This document shows, in pieces, positions 57,204-63,120 of a stretch of DNA of 64,000 bases (position 1 is the first letter of the stretch; each line of letters opens with the position of its first letter). Location: positions 1-64,000 of the forward strand of contig NZ_LGVW01000006.1 in the NCBI RefSeq assembly GCF_001263335.1, written 5' to 3'. The notes under the pieces were generated by a model. That model saw only the letters and a program-made list of their open reading frames with translations, ran no database searches and was not told where the DNA came from. This DNA comes from Dichelobacter nodosus. Lineage in GTDB: Bacteria; Pseudomonadota; Gammaproteobacteria; Cardiobacteriales; Cardiobacteriaceae. The translations under genes were made by a program, and so were the position numbers.

Positions 57204-58865
57204 TTAAATGCGTTTATATTTAATTCGGTGCGGTTGATCAGCAGCTTCTCCCAAACGCCGACGCCGATCAACTTCATATTCGCTGTATGTTCCTGAAAAA
57301 AAGAACGTTTGTGAATCGCCTTCAAACGCCAAAATATGCGTTGCCACCCGATCTAAAAACCAGCGATCGTGGGAAATAATTAACGCGCTGCCGGCAAAAG
57401 AAAGAATAGCGTTTTCCAAAGCGCGCAAAGTTTCCACGTCTAAATCGTTGGTGGGTTCGTCTAACAACAAAACGTTGCCGCCGCTTTTTAACAATTTTGC
57501 CAAATGCAAACGATTACGCTCGCCGCCGGATAAATCGCCAACGCGTTTTTGTTGATCCGTTCCTTTAAAATTAAAGCGCCCCAAATATGCGCGGCTGGGA
57601 ATCGTATAATTGCCGACGGTAATCATATCCAAACCATCTGAAACGGCTTCCCAAACGGTTTTTTGCGCGTCCAAACCATCGCGCATTTGATCAACGTATG
57701 CCAGTTGCACGGTTTCGCCGAGTTCAATCGTTCCGGCATCGGGCGTGTCGCGTCCGGTAATCAAATGAAACAATGTGGATTTACCCGCGCCATTTGCGCC
57801 AATAATGCCAACCACCGCCCCCGCCGGCACTTGAAAACTCAAATGTTCATATAACATTTTGTGTTCAAAACTTTTCGCCACATCATTAACGATGATGACT
57901 TTGTCGCCCAAACGATCGCCAACGGGAATATAAATTTCCTGCGTTTCTGCGCGTTGCTGGAATTCTTTGCTGGATAATTCTTCAAAACGATTGAGGCGCG
58001 CTTTATTTTTACTTTGTCGTCCTTTGGCATTGCTGCGCACCCATTCCAATTCTTCTTTTAATGCGCGGCGGTGCGCGGATTCTTGTTTTTCTTCAATCGC
58101 TAAACGTTTTTCTTTTTGTTCCAACCAAGAAGAATAATTGCCCTGCCACGGAATACCTTGCCCGCGGTCGAGTTCTAAAATCCAGCCGGCAACGTTATCT
58201 AAAAAATAACGGTCGTGCGTTACTGCTACCACGGTGCCGGGAAAATCATGGAGATAATGCTCCAGCCACGCGATCGATTCCGCATCTAAATGGTTGGTTG
58301 GTTCGTCTAATAACAACATATCCGGTTGCGATAATAATAAACGGCATAACGCCACGCGCCGCCGTTCACCGCCGGATAAGGTTGCCACTTTTTGTTCCCA
58401 CGGCGGCAAACGCAACGCATCAGCGGCAATATCCATGCGCAACGCGTGATCATGACCGCCGCCAGCTGCCAAACGATTTTCCAATTCGGCTTGTTTTGCT
58501 GCTAGCGCTTCAAAATCAGCATCGGGATCGGCATATGCCGCATAAACGGCATCTAATTCCGCTTGAACGTCTTGCAGCGCGCTCATCGCTTCTTCCACCA
58601 CGGCGCGCACGGTTTTTTCCGGATCGAGTTGCGGTTCCTGCGGTAAATAACCAATTTTAATATTGGGCTGCGGACGCGCTTCGCCCAAAATATCGGTATC
58701 GACGCCTGCCATAATGCGTAACAAAGTTGATTTACCCGCGCCGTTTAAGCCCAAAATGCCGATTTTGGCGCCCGGAAAAAAAGATAATGAAATATCTTTC
58801 AAAATGTATTTATTCGGCGGCACCACTTTGCCAACCTGATTCATCGTAAAAACGTATTGACTCAT
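57204..58865 (-). CDS. ettA: Energy-dependent translational throttle protein EttA (ABC-F)
   Basis: Cytoplasmic ABC-F ATPase that binds the ribosomal E site and gates elongation by energy state. 553 residues: ABC1 with GLNGAGKS (about 39) and LSGGERRR (about 164), an arm insertion, the linker with RSNAKGRQSKNKARLNRFEEL (about 275-295), ABC2 with GANGAGKS (about 355), LSGGERNR (about 449) and LLLDEPTNDLD. No membrane part. Length and motifs fit EttA rather than Uup/YbiT. Confidence 0.94.
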   Translation of the reverse strand: MSQYVFTMNQVGKVVPPNKYILKDISLSFFPGAKIGILGLNGAGKSTLLRIMAGVDTDILGEARPQPNIKIGYLPQEPQLDPEKTVRAVVEEAMSALQDVQAELDAVYAAYADPDADFEALAAKQAELENRLAAGGGHDHALRMDIAADALRLPPWEQKVATLSGGERRRVALCRLLLSQPDMLLLDEPTNHLDAESIAWLEHYLHDFPGTVVAVTHDRYFLDNVAGWILELDRGQGIPWQGNYSSWLEQKEKRLAIEEKQESAHRRALKEELEWVRSNAKGRQSKNKARLNRFEELSSKEFQQRAETQEIYIPVGDRLGDKVIIVNDVAKSFEHKMLYEHLSFQVPAGAVVGIIGANGAGKSTLFHLITGRDTPDAGTIELGETVQLAYVDQMRDGLDAQKTVWEAVSDGLDMITVGNYTIPSRAYLGRFNFKGTDQQKRVGDLSGGERNRLHLAKLLKSGGNVLLLDEPTNDLDVETLRALENAILSFAGSALIISHDRWFLDRVATHILAFEGDSQTFFFSGTYSEYEVDRRRRLGEAADQPHRIKYKRI

Positions 58866-59081
58866 CTTTGTTTTCTGTACTCAAAAAATAGGTGAATGAG
58901 AATAATCCATCAGCGCGCTGATGAATCGCGATTTAAAAACGCGGCAATCATATCATTTTTATGCAGAAATACTGCGCTTGCCCGCAGTAACGCCATTCTT
59001 TAGGCGCACAACACGCAAATCAACAAACCGCTTTTGCGCTTTTGCTTTATAATCACCGCGCCTTGTTTTATTTTTCATAAC

Positions 59082-59945
59082 ATGTTGTCATTATCAAAAA
59101 AAATTTCTGCATATATCCGCCTGATGCGCTTAGATAAACCCGTCGGCACCTTGCTTTTAATGTGGAACAGTTTATGGGGACTGTGGCTGGCAGGAAACGG
59201 CAAACCGCCGGCAAAAATCGCGCTCATTCTTTTGCTCGGCACATGGTCAATGCGCAGCGCCGGCTGCGTTATCAACGATTTAGCCGATCGCCACATCGAT
59301 GGTTTTGTTAAACGCACGCGCTACCGCCCGCTCGCCGCGGGTGAATTATCGGTTTTTGAAGCCGTTTTAATCAGCATCTTATTATTTTTATTTAGTTTTT
59401 ATTTGGTATTACAACTCAACCGCCCCTCGCTACTCGTTGCCGTCGGCAGCGCGCTCACCGTTTTTTTGTATCCCTTTTGCAAACGCTTTCTTCCCGCGCC
59501 GCAAGCCGTTTTAGGCATTGCATTTGCCAGCGCCATTTTACTTGCCCACACCGCCATCTTGGGCAAAATCACTTTAGCCGGCGGACTCATGTTTTTGGGC
59601 GGCGCCTTTTGGGCATTGGTTTATGACACTTACTACGCCTTAGTCGATCGCGACGATGATCTACCGTTAAAACTCCATTCAACCGCTATTCTCGCGCGCG
59701 GCTGCGAACGGCGTTTTATTGCGCTGATGGCGGCTTTGATGCTTTTGTGTTTGATTTTAAGCGGCGTTGCCGGCGGACGCGGCAGTTGGTATTATCTCGG
59801 GCTTTTGAGCGCGGCGCTGCTGATGGCGCAAGAATTGTATATGATTCGCGGCTTTAATCGCGCCCGTTGCTTTGCGGCATTTCATCATAATAACTGGGTG
59901 GGCGCGGCGATTTGGGCAGGACTGGTGCTCGATTTTTTACCCTAA
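59082..59945 (+). CDS. ubiA: 4-hydroxybenzoate polyprenyltransferase UbiA
   Basis: Membrane enzyme that prenylates 4-hydroxybenzoate, the first committed ubiquinone step. 287 residues, about nine helices: YIRLMRLDKPVGTLLLMWNSLWGLWLA (about 11-37), first Asp-rich motif NDLADRHIDGFVKRTRYRPLAAG (about 65-87), and second motif DTYYALVDRDDDLPL (about 182-196), both needed for Mg-prenyl diphosphate. ATG at 59082 gives the conserved start; no clear ribosome binding site is present. A TATAAT at 59048-59053 is a likely -10. Followed 6 bases later by clcA. Confidence 0.93.
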   Translation: MLSLSKKISAYIRLMRLDKPVGTLLLMWNSLWGLWLAGNGKPPAKIALILLLGTWSMRSAGCVINDLADRHIDGFVKRTRYRPLAAGELSVFEAVLISILLFLFSFYLVLQLNRPSLLVAVGSALTVFLYPFCKRFLPAPQAVLGIAFASAILLAHTAILGKITLAGGLMFLGGAFWALVYDTYYALVDRDDDLPLKLHSTAILARGCERRFIALMAALMLLCLILSGVAGGRGSWYYLGLLSAALLMAQELYMIRGFNRARCFAAFHHNNWVGAAIWAGLVLDFLP

Positions 59946-59951
59946 TTATTA

Positions 59952-61238
59952 ATGACCATGAATTGGATACCACAACCGCGGCAACTTGTTTGCCGTTTTT
60001 ATCGTTTTTGTTTACGGATTATTTTTCTTGCCGGTGGCGCTTTTGTCGTTACCTTAACTATTTTAAGTTTTGCTTTTGCCGCGCGCTGGGCAACCAATAC
60101 ACATCGCTGGTTGATCGCGCAAAATCCTTATATCAGCGCGGTTTTATTACCTTTTGGTTTGGTCGCGATTTTATATTTAACCAAACATTTTGCACCACAA
60201 ACTGCCGGCAGCGGCGTGCCGCAAGTCATCGCTAGCATTCATCAGCCCGAACGCAGCGCCCTTTTTCTCGCCCACACCACCTTGCTTAAAATTCCGCTCA
60301 CAGCTTTGGGCATGCTTTGTGGCGCGTCCATCGGTCGGCAAGGTCCTTCCATTCATGTTGGCGCGGCGGTGATGTTTGCGTGGCACCGACTTTGGCATTC
60401 CAAACTGATTTCCGAACAACAATGCTTACTCATCGGCGCGGGCTGCGGTTTAGCCACGGCTTTTAACGCACCACTTGCTGGCATCGTTTTTATTTTAGAA
60501 GAACTCGGACGCGCAAAAACGCTGCGCTGGCGACAATTAGAATGCGTTTTTTTAACGATTACGTTGGCGGCAGGATTTTATGGCTTTTTCATTGATTTTG
60601 CGCCGTATTTTCCCCAATTTTCCGCCGCAAAAATAATTGATAACGCTTTTTTCGGCGCGCTGGTTTGTGCATTAGTCTGTGGCGTTGGCGGTGGATTATT
60701 TGCTTTGGTTTTAGGACGCGGCAAAAATTTTTTATTCCCCGAATCGTGGCGCGCGTTTTTCTGCCGTCACCCTTATTTTTGGGCATTTTTTTGCGGCGTC
60801 GTTTTAACTGTTTTAGGACTTTTTTATCAGGGGCAAACGTACGGCAGCGGCGAATTTTTAATTCCGCAACTGTTAACTCCCGAATATGATGATGCGCCTA
60901 CTTTAGCGCTGGGAAAATGGCTTGCCAGCGTAGTGAGTTATTGGGTTGGCATCGCCGGCGGGATTTTTGTGCCGTGTTTATCAACCGGCGCCGTCATCGG
61001 AAAAACGTTGGCACAAATCGGGCAAATCACCGCGGCGGCGCCGTGGATTTTATGCGGTATGGCAGCATTTTTAGCCGCTGCCACTCAATCGCCTTTAACC
61101 GCGGCGGTGGTGGTGATGGAAATGACGGGTTGCCCCGCTAATTTTGTCTATTTATTACCCAGTTGTCTTGTTGCTAATTTGATTTCGCGGCGCATATTTC
61201 CCGTTCCGTTTTATCATTTTTGCGCCGCGCGTTTGTGA
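59952..61238 (+). CDS. CLC-family chloride channel/transporter with Gln at the gating-glutamate position
   Basis: 428-residue CLC protein with about 16 helices. Filter motifs: GSGVP (about 79-83), GRQGPSIHVG (about 128-137) where the usual GREGP has glutamate, and GGIFVPCLSTGA (about 337-348). The internal proton-path glutamate is kept (FILEELG, about 180). CAA at 60339-60341 encodes Gln130. In the E. coli exchanger the Glu148Gln change abolishes proton coupling and leaves a chloride-only pathway, so this protein may be an uncoupled channel; that is inference from the family. Starts 6 bases after ubiA and probably shares its transcript. Confidence 0.9.
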   Translation: MTMNWIPQPRQLVCRFYRFCLRIIFLAGGAFVVTLTILSFAFAARWATNTHRWLIAQNPYISAVLLPFGLVAILYLTKHFAPQTAGSGVPQVIASIHQPERSALFLAHTTLLKIPLTALGMLCGASIGRQGPSIHVGAAVMFAWHRLWHSKLISEQQCLLIGAGCGLATAFNAPLAGIVFILEELGRAKTLRWRQLECVFLTITLAAGFYGFFIDFAPYFPQFSAAKIIDNAFFGALVCALVCGVGGGLFALVLGRGKNFLFPESWRAFFCRHPYFWAFFCGVVLTVLGLFYQGQTYGSGEFLIPQLLTPEYDDAPTLALGKWLASVVSYWVGIAGGIFVPCLSTGAVIGKTLAQIGQITAAAPWILCGMAAFLAAATQSPLTAAVVVMEMTGCPANFVYLLPSCLVANLISRRIFPVPFYHFCAARL

Positions 61239-61244
61239 TGTTGT

Positions 61245-61709
61245 TTAAAAAACTTGTTCCCATTTATTGCGATGTGCCAGCAAATAACGCGCGATTTCTT
61301 GCGCACCGGAAAGCGAATGATTGGCAGCAAAACCGCATTGTTCCTCGCAACACGCCGGCACGGCTTCCGCCGCTAAAATATCGTTGAGCGTGGTTTCTAA
61401 TAAATGCAGCATCACTTGATAATCCGGTTCGTTGAGCAAACTAATATAAAAACCAGTTTGGCAACCCATCGGGCTGATATCTAAAATTTTATCGCTATGA
61501 TTGCGCATTAATTCTGCGAGTAAATGTTCTAAAGAATGCAAAGCCGGCATCAGCATTTGCTCGCGATTAGGTTGGCAAACGCGGATATCGTATTTATAAA
61601 TAACATCGCCGTGGCTGCCGATTTTTTTATCCGCGAGGCGCACGTACGGCGCTTTTACCGCGTTATGATCCAAATTAAAACTGGCAACATTCATGTGTTT
61701 TCTTTCCAT
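61245..61709 (-). CDS. luxS: S-ribosylhomocysteine lyase LuxS
   Basis: Cleaves S-ribosylhomocysteine to homocysteine and DPD, the AI-2 precursor. 154 residues: [25 protein letters not shown], metal ligands in [12 protein letters not shown] (HxxEH, about 55-66), [12 protein letters not shown] with the catalytic Cys (about 79-90) and the second metal Cys in [12 protein letters not shown] (about 122). The NVxSFNLDHxxVKAPYVR form resembles LuxS of Firmicutes more than that of enterics. ATG at 61709 has AAGGA 6 bases upstream; MNVASF (61694) is an alternative start. Confidence 0.94.
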
Positions 61710-61815
61710 TGACATTCCTTTTTTCAAAACGAAAAGTTTATGTGACTGCTCGGGTATAATACTGAACTTTTTCGCAAGCGCGGAACGTCTTTTATCAATT
61801 AACTATTGAGCGATC

Positions 61816-63120
61816 ATGAGCACGAATCCTATTGAATTACTTTCTCCTGCCGGTTCTTTAAAAACCATGCGTTATGCCTTTGCCTACGGCGCTGATGCCG
61901 TTTATGCCGGCGCCGCGCGTTATTCTTTACGCATGCGTGGCAATGAATTTAACGATGAACATCTTCAAACGGGCATCGCCGAAGCGCACGCCAGCGGCAA
62001 AAAGTTTTATTTAACCGTCAACACCATGCCGCATAATTACAAATTGCAAACGGCACTGCGCGATTTGTCGCCCGTTTTATCCGCAAAACCAGATGCTTGT
62101 ATTATGTCTGACGCGGGACTCATTATGCTGGTGCGCGAAGCTTTCCCCGATTTGCCGATTCATTTATCAGTGCAAGCCAACAGCATGAATTGGGCGAGCG
62201 TACAATTTTGGCAAAAAAACGGCATTAGCCGCATTATTTTGTCGCGGGAATTATCTTTGGACGAAATCAAAGAAATCCGCCAACGTTGTCCAGATATTGA
62301 ATTAGAAGTTTTTATTCACGGCGCTTTGTGTATTGCGTATTCGGGACGCTGTTTATTGTCGGGATATTTTAATAATCGCGATCCCAATCAAGGCGTCTGC
62401 ACGAATGCCTGCCGTTGGCGCTATCAAACGCATGAAAGCCGCGAGGAAACGGCAGGCGATTTTGTGCCCGTTTTAGAAAAACCGAAATCTCATGCCGAAC
62501 GCACATATTTTTTAGAAGAAGAAAACCGCCGCGGCGAATATATGGAAATCAACGAAGACGAACAAGGCACTTACATTTTAAATAGCCGTGATTTGCGCGC
62601 CATTGAACACGTTCGCGCGCTCGTTGAAATCGGCGTGGATTGTTTGAAAATCGAAGGACGCACAAAATCGTTTTACTACGCCGCGCGCACCGCGCAAATT
62701 TATCGTCAAGCCATCGATGATGCCTTAGCCGGCAAAGATTTTAATCCACAATTAAGCCGCGATTTAGACGGTTTAGCCAATCGCGGTTATACCGATGGCT
62801 TTTTTGTGCGCCGCAATATTAATGCTCAACAAAATTATGAAACCGGTTCCTCAAATGCTGCCACACAACAATTTGTCGGTGAAATTATTGATTTTGATCC
62901 AGTAACGGGACTGGCAACGGTTGAAGCAAAAAATTATCTGCAAACCGGCGATAAAGTAGCTTTAATTACGCCAGAAGGAAATCGTGATTTGGTTTTGGGG
63001 ACTTTGTTTGACGTAAAAACGGGTGAAATCGTGCCGGCGGCAAAAGGCAGCGGTTGGATCGTAAAAACGGATTTAGGCGCCATTTCCAGTTTAGCGCTGC
63101 TTGCAAAATATCTTGCATAA
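61816..63120 (+). CDS. trhP: tRNA 5-hydroxyuridine modification protein TrhP (YegQ), peptidase U32 family
   Basis: 434 residues. ELLSPAGSLKTMRYAFAYGADAVYAGAARYSLRMR (about 8-42), QANSMNWASVQFW (about 116), EVFIHGALCIAYSGRCLLSGYFNNRDPNQGVCTNACRWRY (about 171-210) with the family signature and its Cys residues, and CLKIEGRTKSFYYAA. In E. coli TrhP hydroxylates U34 of certain tRNAs with prephenate. Ortholog length matches the long YegQ form with its C-terminal beta-barrel. Divergent from luxS. Confidence 0.9.
   Translation: MSTNPIELLSPAGSLKTMRYAFAYGADAVYAGAARYSLRMRGNEFNDEHLQTGIAEAHASGKKFYLTVNTMPHNYKLQTALRDLSPVLSAKPDACIMSDAGLIMLVREAFPDLPIHLSVQANSMNWASVQFWQKNGISRIILSRELSLDEIKEIRQRCPDIELEVFIHGALCIAYSGRCLLSGYFNNRDPNQGVCTNACRWRYQTHESREETAGDFVPVLEKPKSHAERTYFLEEENRRGEYMEINEDEQGTYILNSRDLRAIEHVRALVEIGVDCLKIEGRTKSFYYAARTAQIYRQAIDDALAGKDFNPQLSRDLDGLANRGYTDGFFVRRNINAQQNYETGSSNAATQQFVGEIIDFDPVTGLATVEAKNYLQTGDKVALITPEGNRDLVLGTLFDVKTGEIVPAAKGSGWIVKTDLGAISSLALLAKYLA

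Follow-up and report, generated by a model that had tools for sequence, protein, structure and literature searches.

A CLC protein of Dichelobacter nodosus with glutamine at the external gating position: a putative proton-uncoupled chloride pathway of convergent origin

The conversion of CLC exchangers into channels is a long-standing question, and CLCs from bacteria are generally regarded as antiporters. In a stretch of 64,000 nucleotides from the sheep-footrot bacterium Dichelobacter nodosus (the window), a CLC gene encodes glutamine where the external gating glutamate (Gluex, CLC-ec1 E148) is expected. Is this an isolated defect in one gene, or does it mark a bacterial CLC that moves chloride without protons?

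An intact CLC gene without the gating glutamate

The window's ORF list and translation give an intact reading frame that opens with ATG at 59952 and ends with its stop codon at 61238, and the product is a full-length member of the CLC superfamily. The Pfam domain Voltage_CLC (PF00654) covers residues 70-413 with an E-value of 1.7e-71, phmmer against PDB chains identifies the protein as a CLC, and a Foldseek search with the AlphaFold2 (AF2) model (pLDDT 87.6, pTM 0.89) returned CLC-ec1-like structures for all matches, with TM about 0.8. The CLC signature motifs GSGxP, GxxGP and GxFxP appear as GSGVP, GRQGP and GIFVP. The protein is the sole CLC match over cut-off in the 1.45 Mb D. nodosus genome (100% complete), and against the ClcA equivalog NF003640 it scored 143.9 bits, below the curated cut-off of 350 bits. 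The two PCR primers for the D. nodosus MLST locus dtdA (PMC5876313) each have an exact match in the genome, correctly oriented and about 500 bp apart, which identifies the species.

In the phmmer alignment Gln130 is paired with the Q148 engineered into 4kk8, an E148Q structure, so the GRQGP motif with its CAA codon, reported in a preliminary description, is borne out by both sequence and alignment. The external gating glutamate of antiporters (GREGP) is lacking, and the inner proton glutamate (Gluin, E203), common among antiporters and not universal, is present as Glu184. The equivalents of S107, R147, F190, F199, E202, E203, F357 and Y445 of CLC-ec1 are all present, and the protein does not look decayed because these pore residues are kept. 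That description also held that GSGVP, GIFVP and the inner glutamate remain; all three are indeed there, but the two motifs depart from the norm of their subfamily, GSGIP and GIF(A/S/T)P, and these departures co-occur with loss of Gluex. Coordinates are collected in Table 1.

Table 1. Features of the CLC gene and its upstream neighbour, in window coordinates
Feature	Positions	Strand	Basis or remark
CLC-family anion transport protein, 428 aa	59952..61238	+	ORF, Pfam, AF2 model, PDB matches
GSGVP motif	60207-60221		
Ser87, CLC-ec1 S107 (anion-coordinating Ser)	60210..60212	+	kept
Val89 in GSGVP, CLC-ec1 I109 position	60216..60218	+	Ile in 149/149 Glu-type members
GRQGP motif, usual GREGP	60333..60347	+	GGT CGG CAA GGT CCT
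Gln130 (CAA), Gluex, CLC-ec1 E148	60339..60341	+	sequence, alignment
Phe171, CLC-ec1 F190 (Pheex)	60462..60464	+	kept; alignment; role PMC7274781
Glu183-Glu184, CLC-ec1 E202 and E203 (Gluin, inner proton glutamate)	60498..60503	+	kept
GIFVP motif	60960-60974		
Phe339, CLC-ec1 F357 (Phecen)	60966..60968	+	kept; alignment
Val340 in GIFVP, CLC-ec1 A358 position	60969..60971	+	Gly/Val in 0/149 Glu-type members
Tyr421, CLC-ec1 Y445 (inner gate Tyr)	61212..61214	+	kept
UbiA-like prenyltransferase ORF, named by eye	59034..59945	+	ends 6 bp before CLC start

Co-transcription of the UbiA-like frame with the CLC gene is possible, and a LuxS-like frame, also named by eye, is convergent with the CLC gene. 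The UbiA-like frame is not found beside the CLC gene in Pasteurella, where that gene is flanked by ribosomal-protein genes on one side and a Dus-like gene on the other, or in the nearest genome of the same family. Comparison of the gene neighbourhoods of the members with Gln at Gluex revealed no consistent shared partner.

Occurrence and separate origins of Gln at Gluex

Profile searching placed the protein in a distinct proteobacterial CLC subfamily. The profile was built from 16 members and the window CLC, members were gathered by searching class, family and phylum genome samples, and the profile score separates members (at least 328 bits) from other CLCs (at most 202 bits). The closest relatives, at 44-46% identity, come from another genus of the same family (L003, L004) and from Pasteurella (L025-L027), and all carry GREGP. 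Of the 172 distinct subfamily members, 149 have Glu at Gluex, 17 have Gln, 4 have Gly and 2 have Phe. The 17 Gln proteins are the window CLC, one member of family f145 (L062) and a clade in family f111, where the Gln motif was present in 16 of the 401 genomes searched and 15 of these matches, from 9 genera, were confirmed as subfamily members. The preliminary description had proposed an alignment with CLC subfamilies to look for a clade with fixed Gln. Family f111 has such a clade, Gln being invariant across 15 distinct sequences that are 56-97% identical and encoded mostly by CAG, by CAA in others; constancy of the residue despite this synonymous codon turnover argues for selection and against drift or error.

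Several candidates were set aside during the census. The sixteenth f111 match (L208, in G748) was not recovered as a subfamily member and was not counted, and a second motif match in G254 (L151) is not a member either. Matches to a CAR codon motif in G237, G111, G204, G226 and G243 lie in a context unlike CLC, and their number is about that expected from control matches. A Shinella sequence from a near-identity plasmid search is Glu-type, as are the best plasmid matches (Comamonas, Variovorax, pIJB1 and pEST4011). The members on the catabolic plasmids pIJB1 and pEST4011 (L221 and L224; 5621-6952) lie near muconate cycloisomerase-family genes and possibly export chloride during dechlorination. 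Other members are unusual in their own right. L006 and L148 read GVFAP/GIFAP at the Gluex motif, with Phe at the gating position, which resembles the second-repeat GxFxP motif. L146 and L147, on a long branch, carry Gly at both Gluex and Gluin and GGGVP in place of GSGIP, and are thus CLCs without either proton glutamate and without the anion-coordinating Ser. L123 and L126 each contain one TAA within the matched stretch, and therefore may be truncated or frameshifted at one end.

The phylogeny was inferred with IQ-TREE from 64 rows, with the Gluex and Ec109 (CLC-ec1 I109) columns left out. The window CLC groups with Pasteurella and same-family sequences, all Glu (support 100/100), L062 groups with relatives from its own family that have Glu (99/93), and Glu sequences surround the f111 Gln clade (100/100). 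A single clade of all Gln rows was rejected (AU p=1.2e-5), and parsimony needs seven changes of Gluex. Gln at Gluex therefore arose at least three times, in the window lineage, in the f145 member and in the f111 clade, and the D. nodosus residue is a separate, convergent case. The window protein has a branch length of 1.46, against 0.1-0.4 for its relatives.

Residues that change with Gluex

Two further pore positions differ between members with and without Gluex. Every one of the 149 Glu members has Ile at Ec109, whereas 20 of the 23 others do not (Val 16, Pro 3, Ala 1). Ec358 (CLC-ec1 A358), part of the backbone that lines the CLC-ec1 anion path, is Gly or Val in none of the 149 Glu members, where Ala, Ser, Thr or Met is found, and in 18 of the 23 others. 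The window CLC has all three departures, Gln130 together with Val at Ec109 and Val at Ec358; L062 has Gln without either co-change.

In a scan of well-conserved columns, Ec109 was, after Gluex itself, the column departing in the largest number of lineages that lost Gluex (5 of 8 representatives, two of which, L006 and L148, the tree joins together). Its lineage count is 4 where the f111 representative L217 was merged with L164, and 5 unmerged. All five Ec109 changes fall within subtrees lacking Gluex, which make up 24% of tree length; the corresponding branch-length figure, 0.0008, is rough and was obtained after the fact. With no more than about four informative pairs, a sign test on independent pairs did not reach significance (median p=0.125). 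The patterns at Ec109 and Ec358 were noticed in the same data used to test them, and involve few lineages.

Gluin is kept in 17 of 17 Gln members, and no association of its change with that of Gluex was found among subfamily members. In the window CLC, Gluin is thus left with no evident partner. Nine f111 members (L185, L187, L189, L191, L192, L193, L198, L199 and L200) have lost Gluin (E to Q, once K) and kept Gluex, the mirror image of the change in the window CLC.

Proposed mechanism, alternatives and known systems

The CLC-ec1 mutant E148Q has Cl- bound at its external site, and H+ pumping assays have used it as the uncoupled example; its passive Cl- transport runs at about 300/s, against 2200/s for the wild type, with no H+ pumping (PMC7253180). 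The preliminary analogy with the E. coli protein, in which the same change uncouples protons and leaves chloride flow, agrees with these data, but the flow is slow. By analogy, replacement of the external proton-transfer and gating carboxylate by its neutral isostere Gln would leave no side chain that can ionise, move into the anion pathway and carry a proton, and Cl-/H+ exchange would be lost. Passive Cl- flow, of the kind expected of a uniporter or a slow channel, would follow, with the inner Tyr/Ser gate still setting a limit. In a simulated triple Gln mutant of CLC-ec1, turning of Gluin away from the bulky F199 and I109 admits interior water (PMC7253180), so a smaller residue at I109 could ease the inner path. 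Val at Ec109 and Ec358 may thus be an adjustment of the pore and of the inner water and proton path after coupling was lost.

Because Gln has three origins and usually comes with two other pore changes, the likely product is a proton-free chloride pathway. We consider the window CLC to be probably a natural proton-uncoupled Cl- uniporter or channel, reached convergently, and give this reading, which leans on CLC-ec1 mutants, a probability of roughly 0.7. The 'real bacterial chloride channel' of the preliminary description is a possible label: in CLC-ec1 the change to Gln by itself yields an uncoupled conductance that is slow, and the window CLC retains the inner Tyr gate. By the same mutant data, E148Q is slower than the wild type and is not channel-like. 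Retention of Gluin in all Gln members would also be odd if the proton path were useless, and CLC-ec1 data suggest that Gluin acts partly indirectly (PMC7253180).

The long branch of the window protein makes relaxed selection possible, with Gln130 an early step of decay in a reduced, 1.45 Mb genome and of no adaptive meaning there. This is unlikely, since the reading frame is intact and full-length, the other catalytic and pore residues are all kept, the predicted fold is of high confidence and the triple signature is that of a clade in which Gln is conserved. The same signature bears on a sequencing or assembly error, conceivable in a draft genome of 36 contigs where CAA and GAA differ by one base. 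Val89 and Val340 match the signature of Gluex-less lineages and need separate changes, and with two such further departures in the same gene a read error is scarcely credible.

Proton coupling might instead be maintained by way of a different residue or along a water wire, leaving an antiporter. The invariant inner Glu (17/17) fits this, as does the ability of CLC homologues to pump H+ without a titratable Gluin, by which proton routes can differ (PMC7253180). Yet no new acidic residue lies in or beside GRQGP, E148Q abolishes H+ pumping in CLC-ec1, and loss of Gluex is accompanied by change at Ec109, which borders the inner water path; maintained coupling is accordingly a distinctly improbable account. 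The preliminary description also entertained a different ion, and without Gluex the external site, which Ec358, itself changed, adjoins, could have a different selectivity. GSGxP with its Ser is kept, however, the CLC-F motif is absent, an Rfam scan of 58800-62000 gave no riboswitch and no other match, and no fluoride or nitrate gene neighbours were noticed. On sequence grounds the protein would thus not be assigned to CLC-F, which is marked by a non-Ser selectivity motif and a fluoride riboswitch, and a switch to fluoride, nitrate or another ion is very improbable.

More tentatively, and at somewhat less than even odds, the subfamily may have turned proton-coupled antiporters into Cl- channels or uniporters on about seven occasions, including the three that led to Gln, by a recurrent recipe in which Gluex is neutralised, Ec109 shrunk and Ec358 changed to Gly or Val. 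On that reading the Gln proteins of f111 would form a lasting group of natural chloride channels in bacteria, and the D. nodosus protein would be a convergent example. One view sees CLC channels as 'broken' transporters (Miller 2006, cited in PMC7253180), and the repeated loss of Gluex, sometimes with Glu-type sisters close by, provides natural before/after pairs. The co-changing positions Ec109 and Ec358 suggest specific mutations that could be added to E148Q in CLC-ec1. Such proteins would also reveal the physiological job of proton-free chloride flow in a bacterium; an electrical shunt and chloride or osmotic balance are possible roles, offered as guesses.

Gln at Gluex is the classical laboratory mutant, and its structures in CLC-ec1 (E. 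coli ClcA; PDB 1OTU, 4KK8 and 6V2J) share the fold of the window CLC (TM about 0.8), the position of the Gln, and the inner Glu, Ser and Tyr, 6V2J having the inner Glu mutated as well. They are engineered and keep I109 and A358, whereas the window CLC is natural and only 22-23% identical. Among the open-access papers searched, no earlier description of a natural bacterial Gln-type CLC class was found. Natural loss of Gluex is already known in the mammalian channels ClC-Ka and ClC-Kb, whose voltage gating is weak (PMC5362633); these are far relatives, eukaryotic and in need of barttin, and carry Val, not Gln. CLC-F fluoride/proton antiporters belong to the same superfamily, but have other selectivity motifs and keep Gluex. 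The Glu-type relatives from Pasteurella and the other genus of the same family share subfamily and length with the window CLC, but carry GSGIP, GREGP and GIFTP and are predicted to be ordinary antiporters.
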